DNA of 34,035 nt, taken from IMG/VR virus record IMGVR_UViG_3300028840_002446, positions 1-34,035 of that record; one strand, 5' to 3'. Source of the stretch: a virus. The position numbers and the translations under genes are program-made. Shown piece after piece: positions 10,982-33,828 of the stretch. The notes under the pieces are model-generated. The model had not been told where the DNA came from, made no database searches, and was given only the letters and a program-made list of their open reading frames with translations. How positions within the stretch are numbered: position 1 is the first letter of the stretch; every line of letters starts with the position of its first letter.

Positions 10982-11167
10982 ATGAAAGACGGTCAGTGTC
11001 TAAAGTGCAAGGCTCCGCTTTTAATCGACACGATGAGAATGAGGCCGCTGTGCAGCGATTGTGAAAGGGAGATAAACGAAAAGATCACAAAGAGTATGAA
11101 AGAAAGAGGCAAGCCGGTCAAGGGTAAAAGTTTGGTGTTTCCCAAAAAGCCTAAAAATGAAGATTGA
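10982..11167 (+). CDS. 61-residue zinc-ribbon protein
   Basis: ATG at 10982 is preceded by a strong AGGGAGAGGGG ribosome-binding site. C6-x2-C9 and C24-x2-C27 form a zinc ribbon, followed by a helix and a lysine-rich tail (GKSLVFPKKPKNED). It is the second zinc ribbon in a row and overlaps the sulfotransferase start by 11 bases. It may bind nucleic acid or a partner enzyme; nothing shows which. Confidence 0.65.
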   Translation: MKDGQCLKCKAPLLIDTMRMRPLCSDCEREINEKITKSMKERGKPVKGKSLVFPKKPKNED

Positions 11168-13139: not shown

Positions 13140-13169
13140 TTGACCTTAAAAAAAGGAAGGGGAAAACCT

Positions 13170-14778: not shown

Positions 14779-16367
14779 GAGACTTTACTATATTTCCGGT
14801 TTTAGGACTGAGAACAAACGTTCCCTATACCGATCCCTCTTTATTTGTTTCGGTTGGTGATTCAGCGGCAATGACACATTGTGTTGATTGTAGGAATATA
14901 GATTTTACCAGAATAAGAAATGCGTGTTCAAAAAGCGAGGGTCGGGCAGAGTGGTCGAATTCAGCTGTTGGAACTCCTTCCTATTGTCTTGGAATATTTG
15001 AATTATACGACGGCACAAACCGTGTTGTCTGGATGGCATATGACGGAGATATGTATCGGTTTGATTCCGCAAGAGACCCAGGGGAGATAGCGGATGCCGG
15101 GGCGACTGCGTTTGCATCAGACCAGGGGGATTTGTATTCGTTTATTCGATATGGAAACCACATGGTGTTTTCAGACTACGGGGAACACACACCGTATTGT
15201 TCGGATTTTAATGATGCTAACCTTGTTAAATTAATTTCAGGAGGAACGGAGTTCAAGTTTCGTTATCTTGGAAGTTTTGCAAGGCGCATAATCGGTATGT
15301 ATTCGGATCAGTCAAACGGAAATATCGAAATAAGATGGTCCAACGCAAACCCAACACCAAACACGGATTGTGAATTTGCCGCAGCAAATCAACTTTATGT
15401 TCCCAATGATGACCCGATAACGGGCGGCAGCAAGATGGGAACGAACGCCTTTTTTGTATATTGCGAAAATTCAATCAATAGGCTGGATTACTATACGAAT
15501 TATGCAACGCCGTTTGGGTTTACAACCACAGTTGACGGCCAGGGGTTTGTAAACCACCACAGCATAATTAATGAAAACGGTCTTAATTATGGGTATAACA
15601 CAAACTACGGATTTTGTGCCTATGATGGCGGCAGGGCGTTAATTCCAATAGGAACAGAGATTGAAAACTGGACAAAAAGTATTCGCTATCAGTATGCTAA
15701 TTTAATCGTGGGAGCCTCGCTACCGTATGCCAATTCCCTGATTTGGACAGTCCCTTTAGAGGGATCGTCCATACCAAATGCCCTGTTGATATATGATTAT
15801 GTAGAAAGAAAGTGGACAAGAAGGGATTTTGAGGCGACATATATTTCCCGATTTATAAATGCAACCAATGTAACGTGGACGAAGTTGACCACCGAAATGG
15901 GATATACGACTTGGGAAAGTCTGGGAGCATTAAGGTGGGCTGATTTAATTGATGAAACGCCGACTATTGGGTGTTCTTCTACTGATGGAAAGTTATATTC
16001 TTTAACCTCTGAATCTGATGCTGGAAGCGATTATGACGGGTACAGGGTTGAACCTGCGTTGAGTTTTGGGGGATTTAACACGTATTCGATTTTATCCGAG
16101 ATATGGTTTTCAATTGTTTATGGGTCGTCATTTAATCTGTATGTTTATTATCGTGGTGCAGACACGGAAATAGAACTGCGAACGGCAAAATGGATAGCAT
16201 TGGAAGAAGTTTCCTTTAATTCCCCTAAAGACGCTGTGTGCAGACTAAACAATAGCGATTTAACGGCAAAAAGGCTGCATCAGATAAAATGGGGAACTGA
16301 TGCGGAAAATGAACAGTTTGTTGTAAATCAAATTAAGTTTTATTATGATTTTGCAGGTCGGTATTAA
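14775..16367 (+). CDS. Tail nozzle-like beta-propeller protein
   Basis: 530 residues, starting inside the adaptor stop (ATGA). Repeated short beta units with aromatic/aspartate turns (VVWMAYDGDMYRFD; YGNHMVFSDYG; NALLIYDYVERKWTRRDF) indicate a propeller, as in gp10/nozzle proteins of short-tailed phages, which form the tube tip under the adaptor. Length and synteny fit. It has no signal peptide. Residues 400-530 are less repetitive and may form the tip or fibre-binding domain. Family assignment rests on fold pattern and order, not on a unique motif. Confidence 0.68.
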   Translation: MRDFTIFPVLGLRTNVPYTDPSLFVSVGDSAAMTHCVDCRNIDFTRIRNACSKSEGRAEWSNSAVGTPSYCLGIFELYDGTNRVVWMAYDGDMYRFDSARDPGEIADAGATAFASDQGDLYSFIRYGNHMVFSDYGEHTPYCSDFNDANLVKLISGGTEFKFRYLGSFARRIIGMYSDQSNGNIEIRWSNANPTPNTDCEFAAANQLYVPNDDPITGGSKMGTNAFFVYCENSINRLDYYTNYATPFGFTTTVDGQGFVNHHSIINENGLNYGYNTNYGFCAYDGGRALIPIGTEIENWTKSIRYQYANLIVGASLPYANSLIWTVPLEGSSIPNALLIYDYVERKWTRRDFEATYISRFINATNVTWTKLTTEMGYTTWESLGALRWADLIDETPTIGCSSTDGKLYSLTSESDAGSDYDGYRVEPALSFGGFNTYSILSEIWFSIVYGSSFNLYVYYRGADTEIELRTAKWIALEEVSFNSPKDAVCRLNNSDLTAKRLHQIKWGTDAENEQFVVNQIKFYYDFAGRY

Positions 16368-16711
16368 TGTTTATTCATCCACCCGAAAACACTGATGACA
16401 TAAACGTATTATTGAATTGGTGCAATCAACTTCAAAGAAAGTTGATTGAAGATGATTTAAAGGGGTCGGCAACCTGGGATGCTGGCAGCATTGCAGATGG
16501 CGCAGAAGAAGCATCCACAGTAACGGTAACGGGGGCCGAGGTTGGAGATTATGCGATAGCATCACTTAGTATAGATATCAGTGACTTGGTATTGGACGCA
16601 CAGGTAACGGCGGCGAATACCGTGACTTGTGTTTTAGCGAACAATACGGGCGGTGCCGTAGATTTAGCATCGGCAACCGTATATGTGAGAGTATTTAGGA
16701 GAACAACTTAA
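16367..16711 (+). CDS. Small fibre/decoration-like protein
   Basis: 114 residues; the ATG overlaps the nozzle stop (TAATG). After a helical N-terminus (about 1-35) comes a beta-sandwich-like domain (EEASTVTVTGAEVGDYAIAS; ANTVTCVLANNTGGAVDLAS). That pattern (VTVTGA...GD, then AANTV...LANNTGxAVDLAS) recurs in many phage fibre and decoration proteins. Likely on the virion surface or tail. The stop also overlaps the next start (TAATG). Confidence 0.6.
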   Translation: MFIHPPENTDDINVLLNWCNQLQRKLIEDDLKGSATWDAGSIADGAEEASTVTVTGAEVGDYAIASLSIDISDLVLDAQVTAANTVTCVLANNTGGAVDLASATVYVRVFRRTT

Positions 16712-17577
16712 TGGCAGACCAACACAATGATAACATCCCGGCAGTTGGTAATCTGATAGCAAACGACATACCGGACATCAAGGAAAACTTGGAGTGGCAC
16801 AAGGATCTTTTGCAAATGCTTGTTGGCTGGAAAGCTTCTAGTATCGCAACGGTTGGGCCGGTTCCGCGCCGGTCGGCATTTGCATATTCAGATGCCGACA
16901 CGCTTAACATAGGTGGCGGTTCATATTTTCACGATGGAACAACAAGGCAGGTTGTGTTTTGGGACACGACACTGACATTTGATCTTGGGTCCGGTGGAGA
17001 CAACGCCGACAGTGATGATCTGGGGGCAGATGAATGGCATTATATTTATATAGACGATTCTGCCGTTGTTACAAACGATGACAGTGAGCTTGATGCCACA
17101 TGCTTTTTAAATGATACAACGGCACCTCAATATACTCAAGCAAAGCACGGTTGGTATAATGGGTCAGACAGGTGTATATTTGCGGTATTAACCAATGACT
17201 CGAATGAAATAAAAGAGTTTATATATGAAGACCGGCTTGTTTTATTCGCAGATCAAGTTTCGGATCGTGCGGTTGCAGATTTAGATGATACCTTTACCAC
17301 CTGCCAGCTTACAATTCCAGGCTTTGCAACTAGGGCTATGGTGACGTTTTTATTTAGGTACGTTGACGGGAACTCTGATTTTTATTGGAGAACGAACGGA
17401 CAGACCGGATCAACTGGTCATTTGGTCGGTCAAAATACATCAACAGAGGTAAATATGGTTCAGACACAAACCGTTATTACTGATGCAACTCAATACATAC
17501 AAATAAAAAATAGTGCGTCAAACGGAAATACTGTGGGAGTTTTGACAGACGGTTGGTATCTCCCGGTAGGAATGTAA
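16711..17577 (+). CDS. Tail fibre or tail-associated structural protein
   Basis: 288 residues. A helical N-terminus (about 1-45, NDIPDIKENLEWHKDLLQML) is followed by a beta-rich body with an HDGTTRQVVFW segment and LGADEWHYIYIDDSAVV, patterns I associate with phage virion proteins. No signal peptide. It is coupled to the previous small fibre-like gene. Receptor binding is possible, but the short length and location before the ejection proteins also fit a minor tail component. Confidence 0.55.
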   Translation: MADQHNDNIPAVGNLIANDIPDIKENLEWHKDLLQMLVGWKASSIATVGPVPRRSAFAYSDADTLNIGGGSYFHDGTTRQVVFWDTTLTFDLGSGGDNADSDDLGADEWHYIYIDDSAVVTNDDSELDATCFLNDTTAPQYTQAKHGWYNGSDRCIFAVLTNDSNEIKEFIYEDRLVLFADQVSDRAVADLDDTFTTCQLTIPGFATRAMVTFLFRYVDGNSDFYWRTNGQTGSTGHLVGQNTSTEVNMVQTQTVITDATQYIQIKNSASNGNTVGVLTDGWYLPVGM

Positions 17578-17578
17578 A

Positions 17579-17794
17579 ATGAGTCAAGCATATAAGTGTG
17601 ATTTATGTGGCGATTGCGTTGACAGTTCAGACAACGCACAACAAGAGCGTGAGGTTTCAAGGCATCCGAAAAAAATAAGTGGAACAATGACAGACATTTA
17701 TATCAAGATGGGTGCCGATGTCGCACATGTTTGCGACAACTGTTTTGAGCTTGTAAAGGAAGCAGCAAAAGAATGGGTAAATCAACACCTTTAG
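17579..17794 (+). CDS. 71-residue zinc-ribbon protein
   Basis: ATG lies one base after the previous stop. C7, C10 and C13, with C52-x2-C55, give a treble-clef or zinc-ribbon arrangement (KCDLCGDC ... VCDNC), followed by a helix (ELVKEAAKEWVNQ). Function unknown. It shares the two-CxxC plan of the ribbons at 4841, 10749 and 10982 but has a longer spacer. Confidence 0.65.
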   Translation: MSQAYKCDLCGDCVDSSDNAQQEREVSRHPKKISGTMTDIYIKMGADVAHVCDNCFELVKEAAKEWVNQHL

Positions 17795-17806
17795 AAAGGA
17801 AGGGAA

Positions 17807-18259
17807 ATGGAAGCGTTAAGAATAACAAATCCAAATTGGTTGGGGGTTTTAGGTCCACAGATTAAGACGTTTGAGGAGAAAATAAGTTTACCGACAATAA
17901 CATATGAAACGCTTTTTACGTATTTTTCAAGAACAATTCAATTTGGTGGTGACAGCACGGAGTTTTGGGTTGTCATGGATGGGGATGAAAACCTGGCTTT
18001 CGCGCATTGGTTTGTGTGTGGGCTACCACACAGGGGGGTGGTGTTTTGTGATTTTATATATTCTTGGAATCGAATGCGAGAGCCGGTTGAAATGTTGTTA
18101 GACGGGTTTATTGAGTTTGGAAAAAAGCATCGTGCGCCGATTTACAAGGGAACGGCGCTTAATGAATCGGTCTTCAGGGTTTTTAGAAAGGCGGCATCTA
18201 AAAGGGGCATTGAGTTAAATAAAACCAAATTAATTGATTTTATAGGGAGAAAAAAATGA
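17807..18259 (+). CDS. Possible GNAT-like acetyltransferase
   Basis: 150 residues with a strong AAGGAAGGG site. The middle, STEFWVVMDGDENLAFAHWF followed by a strand VVFCDFIYSW and a helix (MREPVEMLLDGFIEFGKK), then a final YKGTALNESVFRVFRKA helix, resembles the beta-bulge-helix order of GNAT acyltransferases. The classic acetyl-CoA loop (Q/RxxGxG/A) is not evident, so it may be a degenerate or structural member. It lies between a zinc ribbon and the internal proteins, and overlaps the next start by ATGA. Confidence 0.4.
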   Translation: MEALRITNPNWLGVLGPQIKTFEEKISLPTITYETLFTYFSRTIQFGGDSTEFWVVMDGDENLAFAHWFVCGLPHRGVVFCDFIYSWNRMREPVEMLLDGFIEFGKKHRAPIYKGTALNESVFRVFRKAASKRGIELNKTKLIDFIGRKK

Positions 18260-18987
18260 GCAGTGGCGGCATGGATCGCGCACCGGGGCAACAGTTGTTA
18301 AAGCAAAAACTTGGTCCTGTTATAAGGCGTGTTGGGTTGTATGGTGAAGATTTGGGACAACAGCCGTATCTTGGTGTTCCACAAATGGGCGGTCAACTTA
18401 GCGGCATCCCGATGTACGATGTTCCACAGTTTAACATACCACAACCTACAAGCGGATGGTTTGATTCTATGTCGCCCGAGATAAAGCAAGGACTTTATGA
18501 GCCGTACAATGAGTCTGGGCGTCAAATGCTTGAGCTTATGGGGTCCAGGGGCCAGGTTGGTTCGGGATCGAGCGGGTACACGGGCGCGGCAGGAGTTGCG
18601 CTTGGTGAGCTTGGAAGTCGTGCCGGCAGGGATGTCGGTATGAACGCATGGAATATGATGGCACCAAATGAAATGATGGCAAATCAAGCGATGTGGGGGG
18701 CTGAGTTGGCAAGAAATCAAACGGGATACAATGCCGCGACACAAGAAGCCATGATGGATTATGGCGGTCAAATGGAGGCGTGGAGGATGCCGTTTAGTAT
18801 GGCAAGCCAATTGTATCCAGCCAGCATTCCGGGTGGTCAAGCATCAACAGGATCACCGATAGGAAACGCTTTGTCTGGCGGTTTGATGGGTGGCGTCGCT
18901 GGGTCTATGATACCCGCATCAATGGGGTTGGGTGGTTGGGGATTGGTTGGTGGTGCCGCTTTGGGAGCATTGGGGGGGGTATTTTAG
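18256..18987 (+). CDS. Internal virion/DNA-ejection protein candidate 1
   Basis: 243 residues, rich in G, M, Q and A. The C-terminus (about 200-243) is a Gly-Ala hydrophobic stretch (GGLMGGVAGSMIPASMGLGG) able to insert into membranes. This matches the general character of P22/SU10-type ejection proteins, which leave the virion and form a channel through the host envelope. It starts in the previous stop (ATGA) and is first of three consecutive genes with this character. Function inferred from composition and order. Confidence 0.55.
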   Translation: MSSGGMDRAPGQQLLKQKLGPVIRRVGLYGEDLGQQPYLGVPQMGGQLSGIPMYDVPQFNIPQPTSGWFDSMSPEIKQGLYEPYNESGRQMLELMGSRGQVGSGSSGYTGAAGVALGELGSRAGRDVGMNAWNMMAPNEMMANQAMWGAELARNQTGYNAATQEAMMDYGGQMEAWRMPFSMASQLYPASIPGGQASTGSPIGNALSGGLMGGVAGSMIPASMGLGGWGLVGGAALGALGGVF

Positions 18988-18996
18988 GAGGATCAT

Positions 18997-20148
18997 ATGC
19001 AATTTAATCGTGGTGATTTAAGACCCCAGATGTTTAGTCTTTTAAACAATCTTGTTCTGATGAAAATCGGTCAGAATTTTCAGGCAAAGCAAGCTGAGAT
19101 TGAGCGAGAAGAACGCGAACAAAGAGAGGTTCGTGGGTATAAGGCCGCTGGGTATCGGGAGTCAGAGGCTCATAAGCCAGATATTGATGTCGGTGGCAAA
19201 GGGTTAATGGCCCCTAAAACCGTTATTGATTATAAGGATTTTGGAAACGGTAATATTGTTCCGATTATTTCACAACAGCGGTATGGGGAACAAGAAACAA
19301 TTCCACAGAAGTTGGGGTCTGCAATAAAAGGGCCATCATTACAGAAAAAAACAAATTACTTTATTGGTCGAGATGAAAAAACATACGGGCAAGACTATAA
19401 TTATAATCCAAGCACCGGCAAGTTGGAACCACTTGGGAAGCCATATCTTTCTAAAGCCCCTGGATCAACAACGGTAAATATTCATAACAACCCGACACAA
19501 GTACTGCAAAAGAAAGCTGCCGAATATATTGGAAAGGGACTTGGAGAATCAATAAACAAAAGGTATTCGGCAGGAGAAGAAGCCAGAAACCAAAACTATC
19601 AACTTGGCATGGTAAAGGTTGCTTTATCTGAGGGGGCAAGAACTGGTTTAGGCGAAGAAAGTTTATTAAATTTAAGAAGTTTTGGTCAAACGCTTGGGAT
19701 TGGGGATGCTGATTTGAGTGGTCAGGAATTGATTAGAAAGATTTCTAACGAGATGGCCCTTCGACTTAGAAACCCTGAAAGCGGTCTTGGTTTAACTGGA
19801 AATACCTCAAACAAGGATTTGCAGTTTTTAAAGGACTCTGTTGTTGGGTTGGCGCGAACGGAGCGCGGTAATTTGAAAATAATTGATTCAATGGAAAAGA
19901 TGAACAATTTAAAAATCGCCATTGCCAAAGAACAAAACAGAATTTTGATGAAAAACAAAGGCATCCCACCAATTGATTTGAATGATAAGTTAATGAAATT
20001 TGTTGATAATTACAAGTTTTTTACACCAAAAGAAAGGATGATGTTAAAAAATCTTTCAAAACCAATAAAAAGAATAAGAACGCATAAAAACGGCAGACAA
20101 GTCATAGAATTTGAAGACGGGACATTTGAATATGCAAGTGACAATTAA
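18997..20148 (+). CDS. Internal virion/DNA-ejection protein candidate 2
   Basis: 383 residues with AGGAGG upstream. The N-terminal half has a charged helix (FQAKQAEIEREEREQREVRG); the C-terminal half (about 190-345) is helical with LQFLKDSVVGLARTERGNLK, a pattern seen in large phage internal proteins. No signal peptide. Its last bases overlap the start of the next gene by 17 bases. Likely packaged inside the head and ejected with DNA; this is inferred from order and helical character. Confidence 0.55.
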   Translation: MQFNRGDLRPQMFSLLNNLVLMKIGQNFQAKQAEIEREEREQREVRGYKAAGYRESEAHKPDIDVGGKGLMAPKTVIDYKDFGNGNIVPIISQQRYGEQETIPQKLGSAIKGPSLQKKTNYFIGRDEKTYGQDYNYNPSTGKLEPLGKPYLSKAPGSTTVNIHNNPTQVLQKKAAEYIGKGLGESINKRYSAGEEARNQNYQLGMVKVALSEGARTGLGEESLLNLRSFGQTLGIGDADLSGQELIRKISNEMALRLRNPESGLGLTGNTSNKDLQFLKDSVVGLARTERGNLKIIDSMEKMNNLKIAIAKEQNRILMKNKGIPPIDLNDKLMKFVDNYKFFTPKERMMLKNLSKPIKRIRTHKNGRQVIEFEDGTFEYASDN

Positions 20149-21654: not shown

Positions 21655-21930
21655 ATGGCAAACAACTTAACCGGAAATCCACTAGTGATAGACACGGCGG
21701 CAACAATTACGACCTATCCCACAAAGGTCAAATTTATGAGATGGACCCCAACAACTACAGGTGATGATTTACTCGTTGTGGACAATGCCGGAAATACAAT
21801 CTGGACATATAAGGCGTTGGCGGCAGATGCGAATCAGGGGATTACATTTGACCTCACACTGGATGGCGCAGTGTGTAATGGTATCGTTGTGTCAACAATA
21901 GATAACGGCACCTTATATATTTATCTTTAA
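21655..21930 (+). CDS. Small beta-rich protein, paralogue of the one at 5073
   Basis: 91 residues, 2 bases after the previous stop with AAGGAG upstream. It shares its C-terminus (DNGTLYIYL) and domain order with the 98-residue protein before the portal. Both have a single beta-sandwich character with no cysteine pairs or signal peptide. Placed just before the giant fibre gene, it may be a fibre adaptor, a virion decoration or a chaperone; the duplicate placement at both ends of the structural block suggests a repeated role in the virion. Confidence 0.6.
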   Translation: MANNLTGNPLVIDTAATITTYPTKVKFMRWTPTTTGDDLLVVDNAGNTIWTYKALAADANQGITFDLTLDGAVCNGIVVSTIDNGTLYIYL

Positions 21931-21955: not shown

Positions 21956-24900
21956 ATGATGAAACGACTATTTTTAGTATTTTTAATTATTCTTTTCGCG
22001 GTGACAAATGTTTATAGTCACGGGATTGGACCCGGCCTTGTAAACGTGACGGAAGCAGATGGTTCACCGGATGAATGGGTAAAGGCTATTAAATTCACAA
22101 ATGGCACCGTATCTGTGTCAAACAGTGTGGCAACGGTGACAATTGCCGGTGTTTCCCCTGGGTCCGGGTCGATGACAACGGTTAAGGAGGGAGATACGGG
22201 TGTTGGCGATAGCGATATTGTTACCCTTGATTTTCAGACCGGGTTTTCACTTGTTGAAAGCCCTGATACGGAAGTCAACATCAGCCTTGATGTCACACCC
22301 AACGCTGGAAACGCAACACTTGTGGTTGAGGAAGATTCCATACAAGTCAAGTATGACACCACCCTTACAGAAGGGGCCAGCGGGTTGGGGGTCAAGGATG
22401 ATGGACTGACGGTATCTAAGTTTGGTGATGAGGATTGGGGTGATGTCAGCGTGTCTTCAAACTCAGTCACATTAGATGCTGATGTGGTAGCCGCTGCGGA
22501 AATGGCCGATGCGGATCATGGCATGGTAAGTTGGTCAAGTGGGGCCGCAACCGTTGAGGATTTTGCTTTAAATGCTGCCGCCGATGCCGGGGATCAGGAC
22601 ATTACATCGGTTGACAAGTTGGAAGGATACGATACGGCGGTTTACATCGATCTTGGGGGAGACACACTCGCTGAGATTGTTGCCGATGGCAGGGTTGACG
22701 TTACTGCTCCGAATATCAGGATAGAAGTTGATGCGGATGCTTACTTAAACATTGCCACGGCAGACGGTGGGGCTACAACGATCAGCCAGACATCAGATGG
22801 AACCGATCAGATTATATTGGGAGATGGCTCTGACCGTGTGGATGTGGCGTCTGACACATGGGATGTTACAAACGGCGCGATTTCAAATGTCGCAGGGCTG
22901 ACATTAACCACTGGGAATAATTTTACTATCGGGTCAACCCAATGGAATAGCGGTGACGATATAGACGGAACAAAGGTTGCCGATGCCGACTTGGGAGATA
23001 TTAGCGCAGCCTCCGGTTCGTTTACGCTTGATGACGATGTGGTTGCGGCGGCTGAAATGGCTGACGCAGATCACGGGATGATTTCGTGGACAACGGGTGT
23101 TGCCACTGTTGAAGACTTTGCATTAAACACCGTTGCTGACGCCGGGGATGAAGACATAACCAGCATTGATAAGTTAGAAGGAATTGACACGGCGGTTTAT
23201 ATTGACATGGGTACGGATGGGTATGTTGACTTGGAGGCCGATACCGGGATTCGGTTCAATGGTCCGCTTATCTTTGCCAATGAGGGTGAGCTTGATTTAC
23301 CTTCATCAGATGCCGATCCTGACACAACGGGAGAGCTCCGACACGATTCGACTGTTGCGGGGTTGGAGACCGGCGCACTTGCTTGGTATGACGGCGATGA
23401 AATAAGGTATATAGTCGATTTGGATGCGTTGCCATCAGATGACGATTATGTTGTAACTTATGATGCTGATGCTGATAAATTTTATATGAACTCAGCCGGT
23501 GCCGGTGATGTGACTGGTGTTGGTGATTGTGCTACTGGGGCTTGCCTTGATGGGTCTTCGGACGGTGGGCAAACTATTAGCCTGTATGACGGAGATAGTC
23601 ACAAGTTAACGATAGACGCTGCCGACTTAACCGCAGACGCCACTTTGGTCTTAGGGTCCGATACAAACAACATTACCGTAGTAAACGGTACGGCATCAAT
23701 CGATATCGCGGCGGGTGCTACGTTAAATATAGATACCGGGCTTCAAACCACAACCAATGCCGGTACGCTCGCGTTTTCGGCAGCTTCAAAAACTCTTACC
23801 ATAGAAGACGATTCAAATATAGATCAAGATTTATCTTCCGATGCCTCCCCGACTTTTGCGGGGCTGGATCTGACAGAAGGAAATATCACGAATGGCGGCA
23901 GTATCGCAATTGACGCGATTACCGCTGATGGCACCAACGTTCTTTTTGGAACGGGCGCGGCTACTCAGTTGCAGTTCAGGGATACGGCGCTTTATATCGC
24001 ATCTATTGCAGACGGATATTTAGACTTAGAGGCCGATACGGGTATCAGGTTTAATGGTCCGGTTGTGTTTGCCAACGAGGGTGAAATTAATCTCCCATCT
24101 AGTGATGCAACGCCCGATACTACCGGAGAGTTGAGGCATGATTCCACAGTTACCGGGTTAGCCACGGGTGCCTTGGTCTGGTATGATGGCGATGAAGCAA
24201 GGTATCTGGTTGATTTGGACGTGTTACCGTCCGATGATGATTACGTTGTTACCTATGACGCCGACAATGACGTGTTTTATATGTCCGGTGCTGGCACAGG
24301 TGACGTAACTGGTGTTGGTAACTGTGCCGATGGCGCTTGCCTTGACGGATCATCTGATGGTGGAACGACTATCAGCCTATACGATGGCGATTCTCACAAG
24401 CTCACCATAGACGCTGCCGACCTGACGGCTGATGCGACAATAGTACTTGGATCAGACACCAACAACTTAACGATGACAAACGGCACAGCAACGGTGGATC
24501 TTGCCGCCGGGGTTGACCTGAATCTTGATGTGGACTTCACGGCTGATGGACAAAAAACCACCATTACCGGAGCAGGTCAGGCAAACACGATAACCTTAAA
24601 TGAAAGCTTTACCATTGGCAACGGAACGGACATCACCATTACCGGGGCGGGTCAGGCGAACACCATTACCCTGAACGAAGGCTTGACTATCGGTGACGGA
24701 AATACCGGGACGATAACATTTTCAGCGGCATCAAAAACACTGACGGTTGGAAATGACGTTACGCTTAATCAGGACTTGCAAACAACAGACTCCCCGACCT
24801 TTGCCGCCATCGATACAGGGGAGGGGTCAACCGAAGTCTTTGCAATGGATCAGGACGTACAGACAACGGATTCCCCGACATTCGCCACGGTAACGGCCAG

Positions 24901-27856
24901 TACGGGGTTTGCTCTTGGGGATGGTAATTATATCGGTGTAACCTCAAATGAAAGAATCACCTTCGCCACGGCCGGGACGATTGCGTTGCTTGGTGGTAAT
25001 GTCGAGGTCGGCGCAACCTCTGCCGATGACACACAACCCCATCTTGCGATTATAGGCGATGCTGACTCTGATGCCGCAGGGGATACCGATGAAACCTTTA
25101 AGATAGATTTAACGGCCAATGCCACCCCCACTTCTGCATTATGGGAAATAACCTCAACCCAGAGTGCGGGATACACGTTTGATAAAGAAGTAACCTTTAA
25201 AAACAACGCTGCCGCCGCCACCTTTGGCGCTGTAGCCACAAACGCCGATGTAGTGCTGGCGTTTGACGCGGTAACTGCACAGGGATCTCTGACGTACATG
25301 GAAGACGAGGATAGGTTCGATTTTGACAATGACGTTGCCTTGTTATCTGATTCTGCCGTGTTGAAATTCGGGGCTGATGCTGATGTCACATTGACTCACG
25401 TTGCGGATACCGCATTGTCTTTGAACCTTGATTTAAGAATGCCCGACGAACAAGGCACGGTGTTCGGGTCGAGCCAAGATGTCACGATTGAATGGGGCGA
25501 CCTTGCTTCTGTTGACGATGTTGATAATTCATTGACCGGCGATGGGTTGTTGATATCGGGTGCTTTAGACGGATCGGATATCAAGATTGTATTTGAAAAT
25601 ACCGATTCCGGGGATGGTGTGGATCTATATGTAAAAGATATTCATTACAGCGGCACAATCACCGATCACGGCACAGGTGATGCCTATATAGAGTTAAGAA
25701 ATAACACCGGCGGGTATACCGCTACAAGTGGATACGCGATGTATGTGGATGCCGGAACTTGGAAAATGTATGATGGAACTGAGCAGGAGGTCGTGTTTGA
25801 GGGAACATCACCCACTTGGACAGGGGCAACCCACGATTTTACAGGGATTACCGGAAATTTGGTCCTGCCAGATAATGCACCGTCTGCATCTGGTGGGATT
25901 GCTTTAGTCACGGGAAATGAGCTTCAATGGCATGATGGAACAAAGGTTGTTACTATCGACACCACCGACACCACCGACAATTATGTGTTAAAGTACGACA
26001 ACGCAACGGCGACATTCAGCCTTGAAGCCGATGCAACTGGTGGGACGCCGGCGTGGGATGATATCACCGATTCAACGGGCGCGATGGCAGTTGAAAGCGC
26101 AAGTGGTGGGGAAATCACAACCTTTACCCAAAGTGCCGACAATACCGAATGGCTGTTTGATTTCACAGGAGCTTTTACCACAGCGGCATCACCGGATTTG
26201 TTTAAAATAATTCAGCAAACCGGCAACACTGAAGCTGTTGATCTGGTGGTTATCCAGGCGGCAGACACCGATGTAACCCCACTGAGAATCAGCCATAACG
26301 GTGAGGATATAACCTTTAAGTACTCTGCCGGTAATGAAATGACAATCGGATCGGGAACCAGTGTTGATACGATTGTGTTTTCTTCGATTGGGATTGAAGT
26401 GGTTGGATTAACAGCTACCGGCGCAACTGCTCTTTCGGAAGATGTCAGTATCAGTTTGGACGCTGCCGATGAAGAAATTTCAATTGCCCAATCAAATGCC
26501 GCTGGAACTGAGGATGTCGGTTTAATTAAAATAAACGATGATAGGACAGGGGCTACGGCGACCGAACAAAGCGAAGCAACCATTTGGATTGATGCCGAAG
26601 GGGTTTACGCAATTTCAATTGTAGATGGGTCGTTATCTGTTGAGGGTGATATCGTTCCTGCCGCAACCGATGGGGCATCACTGGGAACAGATGCGCTTGA
26701 TTTTTCAGACTTGTTTTTGGCTTCCGGTGGGGTGATTAACCTTGCAAGTGGTGATGTGACAATAACCCATGCAGCAAACACACTGGCTTTTGCCGGAGCC
26801 ACATCTTCATACACATTTGATGATGCGGTTGATATAACCGGCAGTGATGGGTTGATACTTGAAAATGATGAAACCATAACCAACTCCGTTGACGGAACTG
26901 TTTTGATAAACGGCAATTTAAAAATTGGTGCAGGTGGCGCGGTTGACCATACCATAGTGGTAGACGCCTCAGCCAATGACGGCACGATCACATGGGACGA
27001 AGACCCCGGCGAGTGGGATTTTGCGGCGGCGATTAATTCAAGTGCGGCGATAACCGGAACCGCAATTACAGGCTCAAGTGTAACCGATGGCACCGTGACA
27101 CTGGTTGGTGATGGAACCATAACGGGTGTTAGCGTTGGTGGGTTGCCGGATAATATCGTGGATAATGGCATGATGGCAGATAATGCGATTGACTCTGCTG
27201 AAATTACTGCTGGTGCCATAGATCTGGCACACTTGGCGGCTGGCATTAAGTCGGGCGATGACGCCACGGTAATAACCGGAACGGCTGGAACAAGCGGTTA
27301 CGCTGCCGCGTGGAATGCGGATGGCGATCTTGTTGATGGCATCAATCCGGCGACTAAACTGGATACCGCGAGTCCAAGTATGACAGGGGAAATGACTATT
27401 GGCGATCCGGGTGGGATAAAGTTAACCGACGATAACTATATTGAACTTGATGCAACTGCTGATGGAATGGACGATGACGAGTATAACGGCATTGTAATTG
27501 GTGGTAAAAACTGCGGCGAAGGTCTAACACAGTGGGATACCGTTAGGATTGCCGATGACGCCGATCCGTGGCATCAAGCTGATGCGAATGCCGCTGGTGA
27601 GTTTCCTGCACATGGGTTGTCGGTTGCAGCTTGTACCGATACCAATGAGGCGATTATTTTGGTTCGTGGGATTGTCCGCAACGAAGGTTGGACCGGCCTT
27701 ACTATTGGCGGTGCGGTGTATTTGTCGGAAACTGCCGGAGGTATAACCCAAACCGCACCCTCTGATTCTGGTGATGCGGTTCAGATAGTCGGATGGGCAT
27801 TGTCCGATTCAGAAATATACTTTGACTTTTCCAGACCGTATCTTGAGGTTGAATAA
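21956..27856 (+). CDS. 1966-residue long tail fibre with Sec signal peptide
   Basis: The largest gene. The N-terminus has a lysine/arginine pair, a hydrophobic core (LFLVFLIILFAV) and a cleavage-like site VYS before HGIGPG, a Sec signal peptide, which is unusual for a virion protein. The rest is Asp-, Gly-, Thr- and Ala-rich beta repeats. Two copies of a ~173-residue unit (from GYVDLEADTGIRF and GYLDLEADTGIRF) lie at 23216 and 24011, and a ~60-residue unit (VVAAAEMADADHG) occurs twice before them. A short TITGAGQANTITLNE unit also repeats. The C-terminal ~140 residues differ: GAVYLSETAGGITQTAPSDS then FDFSRPYLEVE, resembling a terminal beta domain of phage fibres. It probably trimerises; receptor unknown. 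Confidence 0.72.
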   Translation: MMKRLFLVFLIILFAVTNVYSHGIGPGLVNVTEADGSPDEWVKAIKFTNGTVSVSNSVATVTIAGVSPGSGSMTTVKEGDTGVGDSDIVTLDFQTGFSLVESPDTEVNISLDVTPNAGNATLVVEEDSIQVKYDTTLTEGASGLGVKDDGLTVSKFGDEDWGDVSVSSNSVTLDADVVAAAEMADADHGMVSWSSGAATVEDFALNAAADAGDQDITSVDKLEGYDTAVYIDLGGDTLAEIVADGRVDVTAPNIRIEVDADAYLNIATADGGATTISQTSDGTDQIILGDGSDRVDVASDTWDVTNGAISNVAGLTLTTGNNFTIGSTQWNSGDDIDGTKVADADLGDISAASGSFTLDDDVVAAAEMADADHGMISWTTGVATVEDFALNTVADAGDEDITSIDKLEGIDTAVYIDMGTDGYVDLEADTGIRFNGPLIFANEGELDLPSSDADPDTTGELRHDSTVAGLETGALAWYDGDEIRYIVDLDALPSDDDYVVTYDADADKFYMNSAGAGDVTGVGDCATGACLDGSSDGGQTISLYDGDSHKLTIDAADLTADATLVLGSDTNNITVVNGTASIDIAAGATLNIDTGLQTTTNAGTLAFSAASKTLTIEDDSNIDQDLSSDASPTFAGLDLTEGNITNGGSIAIDAITADGTNVLFGTGAATQLQFRDTALYIASIADGYLDLEADTGIRFNGPVVFANEGEINLPSSDATPDTTGELRHDSTVTGLATGALVWYDGDEARYLVDLDVLPSDDDYVVTYDADNDVFYMSGAGTGDVTGVGNCADGACLDGSSDGGTTISLYDGDSHKLTIDAADLTADATIVLGSDTNNLTMTNGTATVDLAAGVDLNLDVDFTADGQKTTITGAGQANTITLNESFTIGNGTDITITGAGQANTITLNEGLTIGDGNTGTITFSAASKTLTVGNDVTLNQDLQTTDSPTFAAIDTGEGSTEVFAMDQDVQTTDSPTFATVTASTGFALGDGNYIGVTSNERITFATAGTIALLGGNVEVGATSADDTQPHLAIIGDADSDAAGDTDETFKIDLTANATPTSALWEITSTQSAGYTFDKEVTFKNNAAAATFGAVATNADVVLAFDAVTAQGSLTYMEDEDRFDFDNDVALLSDSAVLKFGADADVTLTHVADTALSLNLDLRMPDEQGTVFGSSQDVTIEWGDLASVDDVDNSLTGDGLLISGALDGSDIKIVFENTDSGDGVDLYVKDIHYSGTITDHGTGDAYIELRNNTGGYTATSGYAMYVDAGTWKMYDGTEQEVVFEGTSPTWTGATHDFTGITGNLVLPDNAPSASGGIALVTGNELQWHDGTKVVTIDTTDTTDNYVLKYDNATATFSLEADATGGTPAWDDITDSTGAMAVESASGGEITTFTQSADNTEWLFDFTGAFTTAASPDLFKIIQQTGNTEAVDLVVIQAADTDVTPLRISHNGEDITFKYSAGNEMTIGSGTSVDTIVFSSIGIEVVGLTATGATALSEDVSISLDAADEEISIAQSNAAGTEDVGLIKINDDRTGATATEQSEATIWIDAEGVYAISIVDGSLSVEGDIVPAATDGASLGTDALDFSDLFLASGGVINLASGDVTITHAANTLAFAGATSSYTFDDAVDITGSDGLILENDETITNSVDGTVLINGNLKIGAGGAVDHTIVVDASANDGTITWDEDPGEWDFAAAINSSAAITGTAITGSSVTDGTVTLVGDGTITGVSVGGLPDNIVDNGMMADNAIDSAEITAGAIDLAHLAAGIKSGDDATVITGTAGTSGYAAAWNADGDLVDGINPATKLDTASPSMTGEMTIGDPGGIKLTDDNYIELDATADGMDDDEYNGIVIGGKNCGEGLTQWDTVRIADDADPWHQADANAAGEFPAHGLSVAACTDTNEAIILVRGIVRNEGWTGLTIGGAVYLSETAGGITQTAPSDSGDAVQIVGWALSDSEIYFDFSRPYLEVE
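23216..24530 (+). repeat. Direct duplication (~519 bp units) inside the fibre gene
   Basis: Units at about 23216-23735 and 24011-24530 encode nearly the same ~173-residue segment, with identical blocks such as PDTTGELRHDST, SDDDYVVTYDAD and ISLYDGDSHKLTIDAADLTA. Codons differ at many third positions, so the duplication is not recent or has been kept by protein-level selection. Unit offset is 795 bases. Confidence 0.75.
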
Positions 27857-28632
27857 TGAAAAAACTTTTACTTCTATTATTAATATTGCCGAGCCTTGCC
27901 TTTGGTGCAATGGATACGTTTGAGGGTTCGGCTGTTACGACATCAACAACTATCGAGGGTTCATCAGGAATAGACACAGTTGATGGAGGTACGGTAACTG
28001 GTGGTGTCGCATGTTCCGATCCAGAGGGAGATCAGGTAACGGAAGGTTTTGAAACGCCTGGTTATGAATTGACATCTCCATGTGGTGCTAGTCCATGCTG
28101 GGATGAAACTGGAAGCCCGACAGCAAACTACACATTATCTTCATTAAGTGGCGGCTCTGGTGCTGATGAGAATTGTGATTATGGCCTTCAAGCGGTTGGT
28201 ACTGGAGCCGATACGCATACCACCGTTACGATAGGATCTGGATTAAGTGAGTTCTGGATAAAATTCTCATATTATTTAGACAGTTTTTCATTTACCAGTG
28301 GCACGACTATCACTATTTATAATAGCGGGATTGCGAGTATAAGACTATATAATGATGGAGGCACTCCACAGCTTTATGCGAGAGCGGCAGGAGATGGAAG
28401 CAAGTATACCATTGCCCTTGATACATGGTATTATATAGAATTTCATGTGGTTAATAATGACACCGGAGATATTACTATTGGAACATCTTATGGTGGAACT
28501 GAAATTGCAAACGCAGGAACATTCACAGGTTATGACAATGGCGCACAAACCACATTCTCTATCGGAAATCTGAGTATAAAAACCGCAACTATGGTATTTG
28601 GATACTTTACGCTTGATGATGACTCTTTTTAA
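27856..28632 (+). CDS. Secreted beta-sandwich protein
   Basis: 258 residues; the ATG overlaps the fibre stop (TAATG) with GAGG upstream. A clear signal peptide (MKKLLLLLLILPSLAFG, cleavage AFG before A) leads to a short linker and a concanavalin/LamG-like jelly roll (SEFWIKFSYYLDSF; DTWYYIEFHVVNNDTGDI). Such domains bind carbohydrate. It lacks the C-terminal SGGGI motif of the next three proteins. Likely virion-associated or exported carbohydrate binder; location after export unknown. Confidence 0.65.
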   Translation: MKKLLLLLLILPSLAFGAMDTFEGSAVTTSTTIEGSSGIDTVDGGTVTGGVACSDPEGDQVTEGFETPGYELTSPCGASPCWDETGSPTANYTLSSLSGGSGADENCDYGLQAVGTGADTHTTVTIGSGLSEFWIKFSYYLDSFSFTSGTTITIYNSGIASIRLYNDGGTPQLYARAAGDGSKYTIALDTWYYIEFHVVNNDTGDITIGTSYGGTEIANAGTFTGYDNGAQTTFSIGNLSIKTATMVFGYFTLDDDSF

Positions 28633-30445
28633 AATATTAAAAATATATCTTTTAATTATTATTTTTATAATGCCGCTTTCTGCGTTTGCCGAAACTTACT
28701 ACGTTAAAAATGACGGTAACGATAATTTAGCTGGAACTACGGACGCAACTGCGTGGGCAACGATAGGCAAGGTCAATAGTTCGGTTTCCGCTACCGGCGA
28801 TGACGTTTATTTTAAGTGCGGTGATACGTGGACAGGAACAAGGCTGTATGTCGATTGGTATGGGACCTCAGGAAATCGGGCAATCATCGGCGCATATTAT
28901 GGTGACGGCACAATCGGCGTCAGTGGTAATAAACCAATAATCGATGGTGATAATTCCGCACCGAGTACTTACACAGATGGATTGATATATGTCGTTGGTG
29001 GTCCATATGTAACGGTTGAGAACATAAAAATAATTAATTCTGCCGGTCATGGCTTGAGGTTTCACACGAATACGGACTATGGCTATGCCGACAATGTTGA
29101 CGCACAGGATATAGACAATGCCGGTATTATGTGGTGGTACTCAGACAATGGAAAGGCAACAGACTGCACTATCACGCTGGCGGCAATGGCATATCATAGG
29201 GGTGAGATAGGCGATTGGCCTGCATGTTTGATGGCCGCTTATTCCCAGAACGCCGAGTTTCAAAACTGCAAGGTTTATAATGTTCACGGTGAGGGTATCG
29301 GGTTGTATAAAAATTCTCATGGCGGGTTGGTGGAAAAATGCCTTGTCTACAATGCCGAAAAGGTAGGCATATACATAGAGGGTTCTCACGACTGCATTAT
29401 TCGGCATAATCTAGTTTATGGCACTACCGACACGACCTATCACCGATATACAAACCCTCCACAATCCGGTGCTGCGATATGGCAGGGTGACGAGGGTTGG
29501 GTGCCGTATACGTCTTATAATAATAAAATTTATGGAAATCTGGTTGCCTACACTGCCTATGGGTTTGTCGGTGCTTCTGAGGGGTACGGCCTGACAAACG
29601 TGGAGGTTTATAATAACACCTTCATAGGCTGTGACGCTACGTTTTGGATCAGCGCGAGTATCTTTTCAAACTCTGCTTATAGAAATAATATATCATGGCC
29701 CAGAAGTGGCGCAAACTACGGACACTATCGAGGTACAAGCGATACACTGTCTTTAGTGTGGAGTAATAACAACTGGTCAACTTCTGTCAGTGGAGACAGA
29801 TCCGGTACGGGAGATGTTATCGGCGTTCCGAGCCTTTCAAAGACAACCGGATGGGATACGCTGACCGCAGGGAGTTTAGACGGTACACAGTTTGCGCTGC
29901 AAGGTGGTGCGGATAATATCGACGCTGGCTATAATGTCGGGTCGAGCAGCATTTACGATCAGACACCAAATGTCGATGAATCAGATTGGACTGCAACGCC
30001 AATATCGGTTGCCTTGGAGGATCAGGACGGACATGGCGATAGTTGGGAAATAGGTGGAGATGTTTATACAACAACCGGCAACCCACCGCCAGAAGTCGAA
30101 AGCGTCACAATATCATCCAGCGGAACAGAGGTTGTTGTGGATTTTGATCAGACAGTTCTTGCCCCTGGGGGTGACGGCTCAACATGGGCGCTGGTGATGG
30201 ACATGGATGGTGCAGTGTCGTTCTCATCTCCGTCAATTGATGGCGATGAAATAACCTATACCCTTTCCAGAACGGTTTGGCGGCAGGAAACATTTGTGAG
30301 TCTATCCTATACTCAAGGTACGATTCAAGAAGTTGGCGGCACGTTGCTTGAAGCGATACCGAGTTACAGCGGAACCTTTACAAACTCATCATTAGACGTG
30401 TATGGAAAAGCCTCCGGGGTTTCCGGTGGTGGTATAAGCCGATGA
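28616..30445 (+). CDS. Secreted parallel beta-helix protein with C-terminal SGGGISR
   Basis: I place the start at ATG 28616 (or 28619); an upstream in-frame start at 28598 would add only six residues. The 609-residue product has a signal peptide ending MPLSAFA before ETYYV. Residues about 25-420 carry repeated short strands with N/G turns (GLVEKCLVYNAEKVGIYIEG; NNKIYGNLVAYTAYG), a right-handed parallel beta-helix as in polysaccharide lyases and tailspikes. About 480-590 is an Ig-like domain (PEVESVTISSSGTEVVVDFD). It ends SGGGISR, shared with the next two proteins. The start overlaps the previous gene by 17 bases. Likely polysaccharide-binding or -cleaving; no catalytic residues assigned. Confidence 0.72.
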   Translation: MMTLFKILKIYLLIIIFIMPLSAFAETYYVKNDGNDNLAGTTDATAWATIGKVNSSVSATGDDVYFKCGDTWTGTRLYVDWYGTSGNRAIIGAYYGDGTIGVSGNKPIIDGDNSAPSTYTDGLIYVVGGPYVTVENIKIINSAGHGLRFHTNTDYGYADNVDAQDIDNAGIMWWYSDNGKATDCTITLAAMAYHRGEIGDWPACLMAAYSQNAEFQNCKVYNVHGEGIGLYKNSHGGLVEKCLVYNAEKVGIYIEGSHDCIIRHNLVYGTTDTTYHRYTNPPQSGAAIWQGDEGWVPYTSYNNKIYGNLVAYTAYGFVGASEGYGLTNVEVYNNTFIGCDATFWISASIFSNSAYRNNISWPRSGANYGHYRGTSDTLSLVWSNNNWSTSVSGDRSGTGDVIGVPSLSKTTGWDTLTAGSLDGTQFALQGGADNIDAGYNVGSSSIYDQTPNVDESDWTATPISVALEDQDGHGDSWEIGGDVYTTTGNPPPEVESVTISSSGTEVVVDFDQTVLAPGGDGSTWALVMDMDGAVSFSSPSIDGDEITYTLSRTVWRQETFVSLSYTQGTIQEVGGTLLEAIPSYSGTFTNSSLDVYGKASGVSGGGISR

Positions 30446-31455
30446 TTATCCGCAAGTTGTCTATTATTATTTTATTGTTGATTTGGACAACGGCGTACTG
30501 TGAGACAACGCCTATACCGGAGCAATCTGATTGGTCGGACGGTGGGGTGGCGCTCAACAACGGTGGTTCTGGTGCGTGGGATTACTGGCTGCAAGGTGCC
30601 GTTAGCCCCTGTGGTGTTCTGAAAATAGACGGCACTTATTTTCTGTACTATATCGGCGCATCCGGTGGCAGGGACGAATCACCGAGCGATCCGGCTTATC
30701 GAAAACTTGGTGTGGCAACATCCTCAGACGGCCTTGACTACACGGCCTATGGCTCAAACCCAATTATCACCTACAATCCCCGTGGCGTAAACTATGACGA
30801 AGAGGGAATATTCTCCTGTGCTGTTTATAATGACGGCGGCACTATCCTTCTTTATTACGGCGCAATGTACGAATACACGGCTGGCAGCGTCCACACAAGC
30901 ATCAGAAAGCGCGAATCAAGCGATGGGTACACGTTTACGGGGGATACGGAGGTTTTAGCGTATAACTCCGGTTGCTCTGGCTGTGGCGATGAGATATTCC
31001 CAACTGGTGTATTTAAATCAGGATCGACGTATTACCTCTATTATATGACGGACGGCTGGGACTTGAGAATGGCAACAATGACGGATGCTGATACGGTATC
31101 AACTACCGAAGCAATTATTACAACGGGCGATTCGGTACGTGGAATGGACGGAGTGATAGTTCGCCCCGATGGTGAGGTGATTATAGCAGTCGGCAGATAT
31201 GATGGTTCTGATGTCAATATCCAACTTCGCGCAGATACCGAGTCTGACCCAAACGACTTCGACACTTTATTGGAAACCTGGGACTTTTTCCCGGCGTATC
31301 AAGAGTATGCTGTGTATTTAGACACGGATGTCGGCAAGTGGTTTATCTATCTAACCAATTATAACAACGATACGATAAGAGTGTTTTCAGCCGATGGCCC
31401 GACAGACGGTACGGCAACAACCGGGATGTCCGGTGGAGGTATCGGAAGAAATTGA
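30442..31455 (+). CDS. Secreted glycosidase-like five-bladed propeller with SGGGIGRN end
   Basis: 337 residues, coupled by ATGA. An N-terminal signal peptide (MIIRKLSIIILLLIWTTAYC) is followed by blades with the recurring pattern of GH43/GH32-type and related propellers: SPCGVLKIDGTYFLYYIGA, FSCAVYNDGGTILLYYGAMY, GVFKSGSTYYLYYMTDGWD and VRPDGEVIIAVGRYDGSD. Acidic residues at blade starts (DEEGIF, GDEIFP, MDG) could be catalytic or metal-binding. GH43-like enzymes cut arabinan, xylan or similar glycans. The C-terminal SGGGIGRN matches the neighbours' tails. Enzyme activity is inference; the fold call is moderately secure. Confidence 0.65.
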   Translation: MIIRKLSIIILLLIWTTAYCETTPIPEQSDWSDGGVALNNGGSGAWDYWLQGAVSPCGVLKIDGTYFLYYIGASGGRDESPSDPAYRKLGVATSSDGLDYTAYGSNPIITYNPRGVNYDEEGIFSCAVYNDGGTILLYYGAMYEYTAGSVHTSIRKRESSDGYTFTGDTEVLAYNSGCSGCGDEIFPTGVFKSGSTYYLYYMTDGWDLRMATMTDADTVSTTEAIITTGDSVRGMDGVIVRPDGEVIIAVGRYDGSDVNIQLRADTESDPNDFDTLLETWDFFPAYQEYAVYLDTDVGKWFIYLTNYNNDTIRVFSADGPTDGTATTGMSGGGIGRN

Positions 31456-32909
31456 AAAAGTTCGTATTCATAATTATTGCGTTACTTTTTGCGTGGACGG
31501 CAGAAGCGGCAACGCTGTATGTCGATGACGCTGGTACCGATTCGGGCAATTGCCAGACTGAAGGCTCTCCGTGTAAGGAAATAAACTACGCAATAGGCCA
31601 GGCGTCAAACGGCGATACCATAGAAATTATGCCGGGTTCATATCCGATTACCAGTGAAAGCGGCAACAGGGTTGTTATCAATAAGGACGTGACGGTAACA
31701 GCCTACGACACCGATAACCGCCCGACAATAAACGGTAACGGCACGCAGACTTATGGCATCCAGATAACTGCAAGCAACGCCACCTTGTCCTATGTGATCA
31801 TGGACATGAATGACCGTGATGATAGTTGGAATCATGAAAACATCAGAATAGAGGCAGAGGGTGTTACCCTTGACAATGTTGATACCCACAGTGGTCACGT
31901 TGGCGTTTACATACTGGGTGGCAGGAATGTCACAATCAGTAATTGTAAATCATATAACCACGGCTCAACGGGTGAGAACCCTGAAAGCGGTCACGGGTTC
32001 GCCTATTATCAAAAAGGTAACTCAAGTTTAAATCCAACAAGCTGGTCAGATAAAACTTATTTCTACAATTCCGAAGGATACGAAACCGGCGAAGATTTTT
32101 ATCAATGCAAGTCTCAGGAATCGGCAAACCCTCCGAGTAATTGGGTGCAGTACGTTGAATTTGACAGTATCAGCGCCTATGACAACGAGGAAGACGGCTT
32201 TGATTTTAAGGGGTGCCGGTATATTAGAATACACGACTCTGAGATATACGATAATGCCGGTGACGGAATTGTTACGCACACATCAACCTCAAGCCCACAA
32301 TCGGATAATGTTGAAGTATATAGAAATAAAATATACGGCAACGGCTGGTGGGGGGTTTATGTTACGGATGATTGCGACAATTGGGAAATCTATTCAAACC
32401 TGATTTACAACAATGCGAATAGCTCATCATACGAGACATATAACACCTATGGATTACAGGTTAAAGAAAATACTCAGGTTTTGCACAATACTATATATGG
32501 AAACGGAACATACGCGAGTGCTAAAAACCACGGCGGGTTGAGGACATCAGGAACCCCGACTGTTCAAAATAATATTCTCTATAACAACGGAACCACCCAC
32601 GGCAACATCTATGTCAGTTCAACCGGCACGATCAGCTACAACTACGTCTATCCAACATCCCCTGGAATAACCGGCAGTAACGCGATTACGTCATCCGATC
32701 CGGGGTTGACCAACCCAAGTGGATATGACTTCACCATCTCGTCAACCGGATCGGTGGTTTATCAAGCAGGAACAGATTTGAGTATTACAACCGATTACGC
32801 CGGAAATTCTTTTCATGCGACTACCCCAAGTGTCGGGGCATACGAATATGAAACCCTACCCACAACGGAATATCCCGGTAGCTTTAGCGGTGGGGGTATA
32901 TCAAGGTAA
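31452..32909 (+). CDS. Secreted parallel beta-helix protein with C-terminal SGGGISR
   Basis: 485 residues, starting with TTG at 31452 that overlaps the previous TGA (TTGA); GGAAG lies upstream. Signal peptide MKKFVFIIIALLFAWTAEA, then ATLYVDDAGTDSG and GSPCKEINYAIGQASNGDTI, the usual entry to a right-handed beta-helix (DUF1565-like). Many N/G-turn strands follow (IRIHDSEIYDNAGDGIV; NVEVYRNKIYGNGWWGVYV), plus LQVKENTQVLHNTIYGNG. It ends with GAYEYE, a common beta-helix end, then a 20-residue tail finishing SGGGISR. Function probably polysaccharide interaction. No second domain. Confidence 0.72.
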   Translation: MKKFVFIIIALLFAWTAEAATLYVDDAGTDSGNCQTEGSPCKEINYAIGQASNGDTIEIMPGSYPITSESGNRVVINKDVTVTAYDTDNRPTINGNGTQTYGIQITASNATLSYVIMDMNDRDDSWNHENIRIEAEGVTLDNVDTHSGHVGVYILGGRNVTISNCKSYNHGSTGENPESGHGFAYYQKGNSSLNPTSWSDKTYFYNSEGYETGEDFYQCKSQESANPPSNWVQYVEFDSISAYDNEEDGFDFKGCRYIRIHDSEIYDNAGDGIVTHTSTSSPQSDNVEVYRNKIYGNGWWGVYVTDDCDNWEIYSNLIYNNANSSSYETYNTYGLQVKENTQVLHNTIYGNGTYASAKNHGGLRTSGTPTVQNNILYNNGTTHGNIYVSSTGTISYNYVYPTSPGITGSNAITSSDPGLTNPSGYDFTISSTGSVVYQAGTDLSITTDYAGNSFHATTPSVGAYEYETLPTTEYPGSFSGGGISR

Positions 32910-32922: not shown

Positions 32923-33090
32923 ATGGACAATGAATTTAATTTTGAACTGTGCCAGGAACGTCATGAACGCATTGGCAGGAGATTAGAGAAATTGGAAAAC
33001 AGATTTTTAACTTTAATTTCGGGAATCGCACTCACACTGATTACCGTTGTCGTGAACCTAATAATACTAATTAAATTTTTGCCAGGTTAG
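32923..33090 (+). CDS. XhlA-like membrane protein (possible holin accessory)
   Basis: 55 residues from ATG 32923 (GGA upstream); the frame is open further left but without a better start. A charged coiled-coil helix (CQERHERIGRRLEKLENRF) is followed by one hydrophobic segment (about 31-53, ISGIALTLITVVVNLIILI). This is the layout of haemolysin XhlA-type proteins, which often accompany holins. First of a group of small, membrane-type genes that may be the lysis module, although no endolysin is visible here. Confidence 0.5.
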   Translation: MDNEFNFELCQERHERIGRRLEKLENRFLTLISGIALTLITVVVNLIILIKFLPG

Positions 33091-33569: not shown

Positions 33570-33813
33570 AGAAAAGCACGATTTTGCGTGGATGGGCAGG
33601 CGATATCATTATGTGAATGAAGACGGTGAGATTTCGACTCCGCAGCAAATGGAGCCAGAGGTTGAAAGGGCAAAGAAACGATTGCTGATTGCGACCATTA
33701 CCCGTGACCCTGAACGAATTGACGATGCGCTGGAAGAACTGGTGATGGTTGGTGTTCGGTTGTGTTTAGCAAGAATCATTGAGGATGATAAAATTGTCTG
33801 CACTTGTGAATAA
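33526..33813 (+). CDS. Zinc-ribbon and helical protein
   Basis: ATG 33526 is chosen because AGGAAGG lies 6 bases upstream; the longer frame from TTG 33505 has no such site. The 95-residue product has C11-x2-C14 (QCPSCKEKHDF) near the start and C92-x-C94 at the very end, possibly forming one zinc site, joined by helices (RAKKRLLIATITRDPERIDD). It overlaps the membrane peptide gene. Its stop codon lies inside the terminator hairpin. Function unknown. Confidence 0.55.
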   Translation: MGTDLQLEYQCPSCKEKHDFAWMGRRYHYVNEDGEISTPQQMEPEVERAKKRLLIATITRDPERIDDALEELVMVGVRLCLARIIEDDKIVCTCE

Positions 33814-33828
33814 GTGCAGACATTTTGT
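33796..33828 (+). terminator. Intrinsic terminator at end of late operon
   Basis: GTCTGCACTT (33796-33805) and AAGTGCAGAC (33812-33821) form a perfect 10-bp stem with a 6-base loop, followed by ATTTTGT. The stem includes the end of the coding sequence and the TAA stop. It probably ends the long late transcript. Confidence 0.7.

Follow-up and report, generated by a model that had tools for sequence, protein, structure and literature searches.

Why would a phage place export signals at the start of five consecutive late genes, between its virion genes and its lysis genes? An earlier note on this DNA had reported such a run, and we addressed the question in the window, i.e., the whole 34,035-base stretch that was analyzed (IMG/VR virus record IMGVR_UViG_3300028840_002446, positions 1 to 34,035). 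The order of the virion genes (terminase-like at 2715, portal at 5373, major head protein at 8384, adaptor at 14047, and structural protein at 14775) suggests a podovirus-like virion, and since the adaptor is of the SU10 type (PF24175), the tail is presumably short. MptE-like, sulfotransferase, and radical SAM-SPASM genes were observed amid the head genes (9613-12787). When the major capsid protein (MCP) was compared with viral contigs, the sole close relative belonged to a sibling contig, and a search for the host by terminase alignment in genome contigs returned 43 pattern matches, none of them a relative.

The five genes occupy 21956-32909 (Table 1). All four junctions between them overlap, so the cassette is probably one transcript with coupled translation. 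The five reading frames were found where the earlier note had placed them, although the third gene, which it started at 28616, could equally well start at 28619; both codons lie inside a longer ORF from 28598. Its statement that the run comes right after the ejection proteins needs a minor correction: a 91-aa gene without a signal intervenes. The longer ORF of the small membrane protein that likely opens the lysis region matched no family in Pfam or PHROGs. On the 3' side of the lysis region, we observed a stem-loop of 12 pairs that has T-runs on each strand (33795-33822) and is likely a bidirectional terminator.

TABLE 1 Cassette genes, their C-terminal tags, and the flanking genes in the window
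Feature	Position	Strand	Basis or detail
91-aa protein without signal, between ejection-type gene and cassette	21655..21930	+	Sequence, signal rule
1,966-aa fiber-like protein	21956..27856	+	Signal peptide codons 21956-22018, MMKRLFLVFLIILFAVTNVYS
Fiber C-terminal domain, residues 1820-1966	27413..27853	+	Homologous to tail, neck, and capsid fiber proteins
258-aa protein, signal 27856-27906	27856..28632	+	Signal rule; first 53 residues resemble G016 counterpart
Right-handed beta-helix protein, signal 28619-28690	28619..30445	+	PF13229, E=1.3e-22
Tag SGGGISR, end of 28619 protein	30422..30442	+	Codons TCC GGT GGT GGT ATA AGC CGA
337-aa protein, signal 30442-30501	30442..31455	+	Signal rule
Tag SGGGIGRN, end of 30442 protein	31429..31452	+	Codons TCC GGT GGA GGT ATC GGA AGA AAT
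Beta-helix surface-type protein, signal 31452-31508	31452..32909	+	PF13229, E=2e-13; TTG start overlaps preceding stop
Tag SGGGISR, end of 31452 protein	32886..32906	+	Codons AGC GGT GGG GGT ATA TCA AGG
Small membrane protein, likely start of lysis region	32923..33090	+	Sequence; XhlA-like by eye only

Signal peptides were called with a home-made rule, other than SignalP, that requires a net charge of at least +1 upstream of the core, a window of 8 uncharged residues whose mean Kyte-Doolittle value is at least 2.0, and small residues at -1 and -3. In a calibration set of 91 proteins from E. coli K-12, the rule passed 12/12 periplasmic or outer membrane proteins, 7 of 20 inner membrane proteins, and 1 of the 59 remaining ones. 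By this rule, all five cassette genes encode a Sec-type signal peptide with a basic start, a hydrophobic core, and small residues at -3 and -1, as the earlier note had proposed; their scores are 5.98-6.84, relative to 4.50-5.66 for the 12 exported E. coli proteins. The predicted cleavage sites are VYS/HGI, AFG/AMD, AFA/ETY, AYC/ETT (or TTA/YCE), and AEA/ATL.

The run stands out both within the window and against other viral loci. None of the other window genes of at least 100 aa passes the rule (5 of 28 do), and the six passes among the 40 ORFs of at least 50 aa are the cassette genes plus ORF 32815, whose long start, from which the rule is passed, is probably not used. The chance that five passes among 28 genes would form one run is 2.4e-4. 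Across 92 viral loci (after loci of <5 kb and nine near-duplicates were dropped), 52 of 1,105 genes pass (4.7%); at this rate, a run of five has a probability of ~6e-6, a generous figure in that genes are treated as independent. Runs of at least three passes occurred in only two of the 92 loci, L104 and L111, with L131 being undercounted because of the choice of starts.

The hydrophobic cores span 8 to 14 residues, which is short for membrane anchors, and a lipobox with a Cys at +1 is absent from all five N termini (30442 has TAYC, with its Cys at -1 and no lipobox). The earlier note had offered three roles, namely, surface-glycan enzymes, virion parts assembled outside the inner membrane, and membrane-held proteins; given the short cores and the cleavage sites, we set aside membrane-held virion parts as the main reading. 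It is very probable that the five genes form a single cassette, expressed late and with coupled translation, the products of which would be translocated by Sec and trimmed by signal peptidase. Sec export is the simplest account of the five intact signals and of the recurrence of such signals in other phages. It is improbable that the N-terminal stretches are instead anchors, or relics of capture from bacterial secreted proteins. Beta-helix proteins of the cassette kind are common among secreted bacterial proteins, and a leptospiral surface family was matched weakly, far below its cutoff; relics would be expected to decay, however, whereas all five signals are intact from the basic start through the short core to the cleavage site. 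Moreover, the fiber is of phage type, and the signals recur in unrelated phages.

The first product, 21956, is the most readily classified. Its C-terminal domain matches 11 phage records at 31 to 42%, in features named tail, neck, or capsid fiber or hypothetical protein, and this homology supports a tail fiber ancestry; when searched by sequence against the PDB, the domain gave one chance-level match only (E=0.91). Although the neck fiber of Anabaena phage A-1(L), an Immutovirus tail fiber, and orf32 of Sulfitobacter EE36phi1 have a homologous C-terminal domain (34 to 42%), the N termini of these relatives (three inspected) lack a signal peptide, unlike that of the window fiber. The sibling contig, G001, matches the window throughout 297-19568 (100% identity) and is unchanged over the displayed part of the alignment up to the fiber gene. 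The 21-residue fiber signal is identical in G001, and the first difference comes directly after VYS. When window positions 21956-22234 were set against L014, siblings identical over most of the shared contig were seen to diverge in the fiber gene directly after the signal, as if the mature fiber undergoes rapid exchange.

The remaining products are harder to name. PHROGs, Pfam, and NCBIfam gave no confident family name for 27856 or 30442, and structure prediction for 30442 and 27856 reached pLDDT values of 39 and 37, which denote very low confidence. A sub-threshold likeness of 30442 to five-bladed-propeller glycosidases or phosphorylases was detected (E=0.0047, far below the family cutoff). 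No match was found among 50,697 phage records for the 28619 protein (as ORF 28598), 30442, or 31452, or for the third-gene protein of G016 and two cassette proteins of G019 (two phages described below); the PDB yielded nothing by sequence for 28598, 30442, and 31452, and no relatives of 31452 were found in viral contigs. The beta-helix and glycosidase-like folds predicted here fit work on glycans. In this respect, 28619 and 31452 resemble depolymerase tailspikes, which share the right-handed beta-helix and likely glycan substrates. Those tailspikes dock by their N terminus and lack a signal, whereas the window proteins carry a signal at the N terminus and their shared element is C-terminal; no virion-docking family was matched in Pfam or PHROGs at the N termini of the cassette proteins, which are signal peptides.

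We next consider the distribution of such cassettes. A search with the fiber domain found 21 loci, and a DNA pattern found 16 viral stretches and one bacterial contig, with some contigs in both; the combined set comprised 32 loci with 23 distinct fiber ends. A candidate labeled as a Microcystis phage (H1) was excluded as a bacterial contig, and L010 (MW495066.1), a record named Microcystis phage MaAM05, encodes tRNA ligases, lepA, and ftsH and looks bacterial with phage genes. Three fibers in the combined set bear a signal (L104, L131, and L145), giving 4 of 24 with the window included; the other 20 have the domain without a signal.

L104 (G016; 82.6 kb) is a siphovirus, as judged by its tape measure and gpJ-like proteins, and is unrelated to the window phage. 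Its fiber domain is 78% identical to that of the window over 147 aa. The fiber, a small protein, and a third protein all have signals, as does the product of the gene before the fiber; the start of the small protein resembles 27856 (49% over residues 1 to 53, E=1.2e-5), and the third protein has sub-threshold Ig-like matches. After the siphovirus lysis genes, glycosyltransferase-like and methyltransferase-like genes were noted by eye from translations (L104:13480-17875). L131 (G019; 23.6 kb) is a distant podovirus that shares with the window the MCP family phrog_1328 and phrog_3287. A fiber, a small protein, and a 752-aa protein, all signal bearing, are found at the corresponding position, upstream of a small membrane protein. 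The signals of the fiber and the small protein start from ATG codons inside longer ORFs, where the ribosome sites are weak. A prophage-like contig from a bacterium, L145, encodes one signal-bearing protein of this fiber type. Thus, in both G016 and G019, genes with signals in the order fiber, small protein, and surface-type protein precede the lysis genes. Together with the gene overlaps, this recurrence supports the earlier note's proposal of an organized cassette, whose export is predicted from the signals.

On a fiber-domain tree of 23 rows (L114 was left out), the signal trait requires 3 changes, at least 2 of which are forced by well-supported branches, implying that signals were gained or lost repeatedly. 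The signal label was not significantly clustered on the tree (87 of 500 shuffles gave as low a value), and the branch leading to L145 is long. Genes with signal peptides were not clearly commoner downstream of fibers (7 of 77 at +1 to +4) than upstream (2 of 70 at -1 to -4).

The G016 cassette directly follows the gene for the gpJ-like tip protein, an arrangement that recalls Lom of lambda: in a lambda genome, lom, which has a signal, lies between the tail spike and tail fiber regions (PMC12309495). The window genes could by analogy be lysogenic conversion (moron) genes, i.e., surface proteins expressed by a prophage and unrelated to virion formation, but we consider this improbable. Lom is a single beta-barrel, whereas the window encodes five soluble-looking proteins, one of them a fiber in first position, and their genes form a single overlapping series of late type; furthermore, no integrase or repressor was noticed in a general inspection of the window.

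A different parallel is offered by G017 (portal phrog_6547), in which a signal-less fiber and a LamG gene are followed shortly by two signal-peptide proteins with domains of the type IX secretion system (T9SS). These two proteins match PF18962 above the Pfam cutoff (L111:10766-15122, equivalent to G017:14135-18491), and a third protein in the same stretch resembles an outer membrane barrel by eye. Proteins sorted by the T9SS are destined for the surface of the host, so by analogy G017 would be a case of phage proteins meant for that surface in the same gene neighborhood. Cargo of this system (Por_Secre_tail) resembles the window proteins in combining a signal peptide with a C-terminal element, of which G017 supplies two phage-encoded cases. 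In contrast, the window element is seven to eight residues long, relative to ~75 residues for the T9SS domain, and none of the five cassette proteins matches PF18962. In L105, a signal-peptide protein with repetitive fiber-like sequence was observed ~4 kb after that contig's fiber gene (13198-14157).

The short C-terminal element is a new observation, absent from the earlier note: three cassette proteins end in a shared tag (Table 1). Since the codons differ among the three, the likeness is one of peptide rather than of DNA. The third protein of the G016 cassette has a similar end, GVSGLGIRTGGD. Within the last 18 residues, SGxGI occurs in 4 of the 1,840 distinct ORFs surveyed, namely, the three window proteins and the G016 protein; the motif was chosen with the tag already in view. 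The tag is absent from the G019 cassette, and a search of viral contigs for the tag followed by an ATG found 2 stretches, both unrelated by their ORFs. The tag probably serves as a shared end for docking or sorting, and we propose that it sits at the C terminus because the signal occupies the N terminus.

Such a tag bears on the possibility that the cassette encodes the virion's own fibers and spikes, which would be exported, acquire their fold and disulfide bonds in the periplasm, and be added via the tag to cytoplasm-assembled particles at lysis. The relatives without a cassette are informative here. G015 is closer to the window than G016 or G019 (terminase 37%, portal 50%, and further syntenic genes up to 18256), and it retains the MptE-like (29%) and radical SAM (57%) genes of the head region. 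It nonetheless lacks the cassette: after the 18256 counterpart come two more ORFs in virion position, one small ORF, and an amidase, with no signal-bearing gene between virion genes and amidase. Its fiber-like genes sit instead in the interval from terminase to portal. The signal rule passes one of these (L102:7222), but the score is low (4.28) and the N terminus unconvincing, and we take this pass to be a false positive. G004 (54 to 56% in terminase, portal, and head protein), which ends before the cassette region, encodes a 903-aa LamG protein without a signal between terminase and portal. Whereas this interval in G004 and G015 thus holds LamG or repeat-rich fiber-like genes without convincing signals, that of the window contains no fiber-like gene, and the cassette may therefore hold the phage's only fibers.

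The apparent lack of other fibers favors virion parts, as do the C-terminal domain, which is that of virion fibers, and the tag, which is common to proteins of different folds. The cysteine content counts toward the exported-module reading favored below and is suggestive only: the cassette proteins except the fiber have 21 Cys in 1,608 mature residues (1.3%), relative to 30 in 4,383 (0.68%) across 13 further proteins of the virion or of packaging, and a Cys pair in the fiber domain is common to the window and G016 and absent as a pair from 22 other aligned domains. Both features fit an oxidizing compartment, although the enrichment is modest and the pair rests on two related sequences. Against the virion reading, G019 lacks the tag, another window gene, e.g., 16711, could encode the receptor-binding protein, and we know of no tailed phage that exports fibers and fits them at lysis. 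On balance, we regard virion fibers supplied from the periplasm as less likely than not, but as the main rival of the reading favored below. A virion assembled from two compartments, in which Sec-routed fibers and spikes would fold in the periplasm and dock by the tag at lysis and the module would have moved between podoviruses and siphoviruses, strikes us as slightly more doubtful.

Phage late proteins that use the host Sec system have precedents in the exported endolysins fOg44 Lys44, P1 Lyz, and phage 21 R21 (PMC6116005), but these are single lysis enzymes, with no fiber and no cassette. Other reports describe phage diversity-generating retroelement (DGR) target proteins without detectable signal peptides (PMC6199706), 0 to 2 signal peptides per genome in five rumen phages (PMC5723332), and three Bacillus phage GH32 enzymes without a signal peptide (PMC4595243). 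The titles and opening lines of abstracts in the open-licence literature yielded no description of a signal-bearing fiber cassette.

Taken together, the best explanation overall, which we judge to have about an even chance of being correct, is that the cassette is an exchangeable Sec-exported module that would work on envelope or extracellular glycans of the infected cell. The module would consist of a long fiber, a small fiber-associated protein, and then putative glycan-binding or glycan-cleaving proteins, inserted between the virion and lysis genes. Its products would cross the inner membrane via the host Sec translocon and lose their signals to signal peptidase. That they then act on the cell's envelope and extracellular glycans is a proposal in which our confidence falls just short of even; both the enzyme-like folds and the example of G017 favor it, and against it, most fibers with this domain bear no signal, and the fibers would need to cross the outer membrane before lysis. 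By trimming polysaccharide and occupying receptors, the exported proteins would, we propose, let progeny escape the dying cell and its neighbors.

The C-terminal tag provides a handle for finding further cassettes. In textbooks, tailed phages are assembled in the cytoplasm; export signals on a module that recurs and can be exchanged would mean either that the cell surface is prepared before lysis or that the virion is partly finished outside the cytoplasm.
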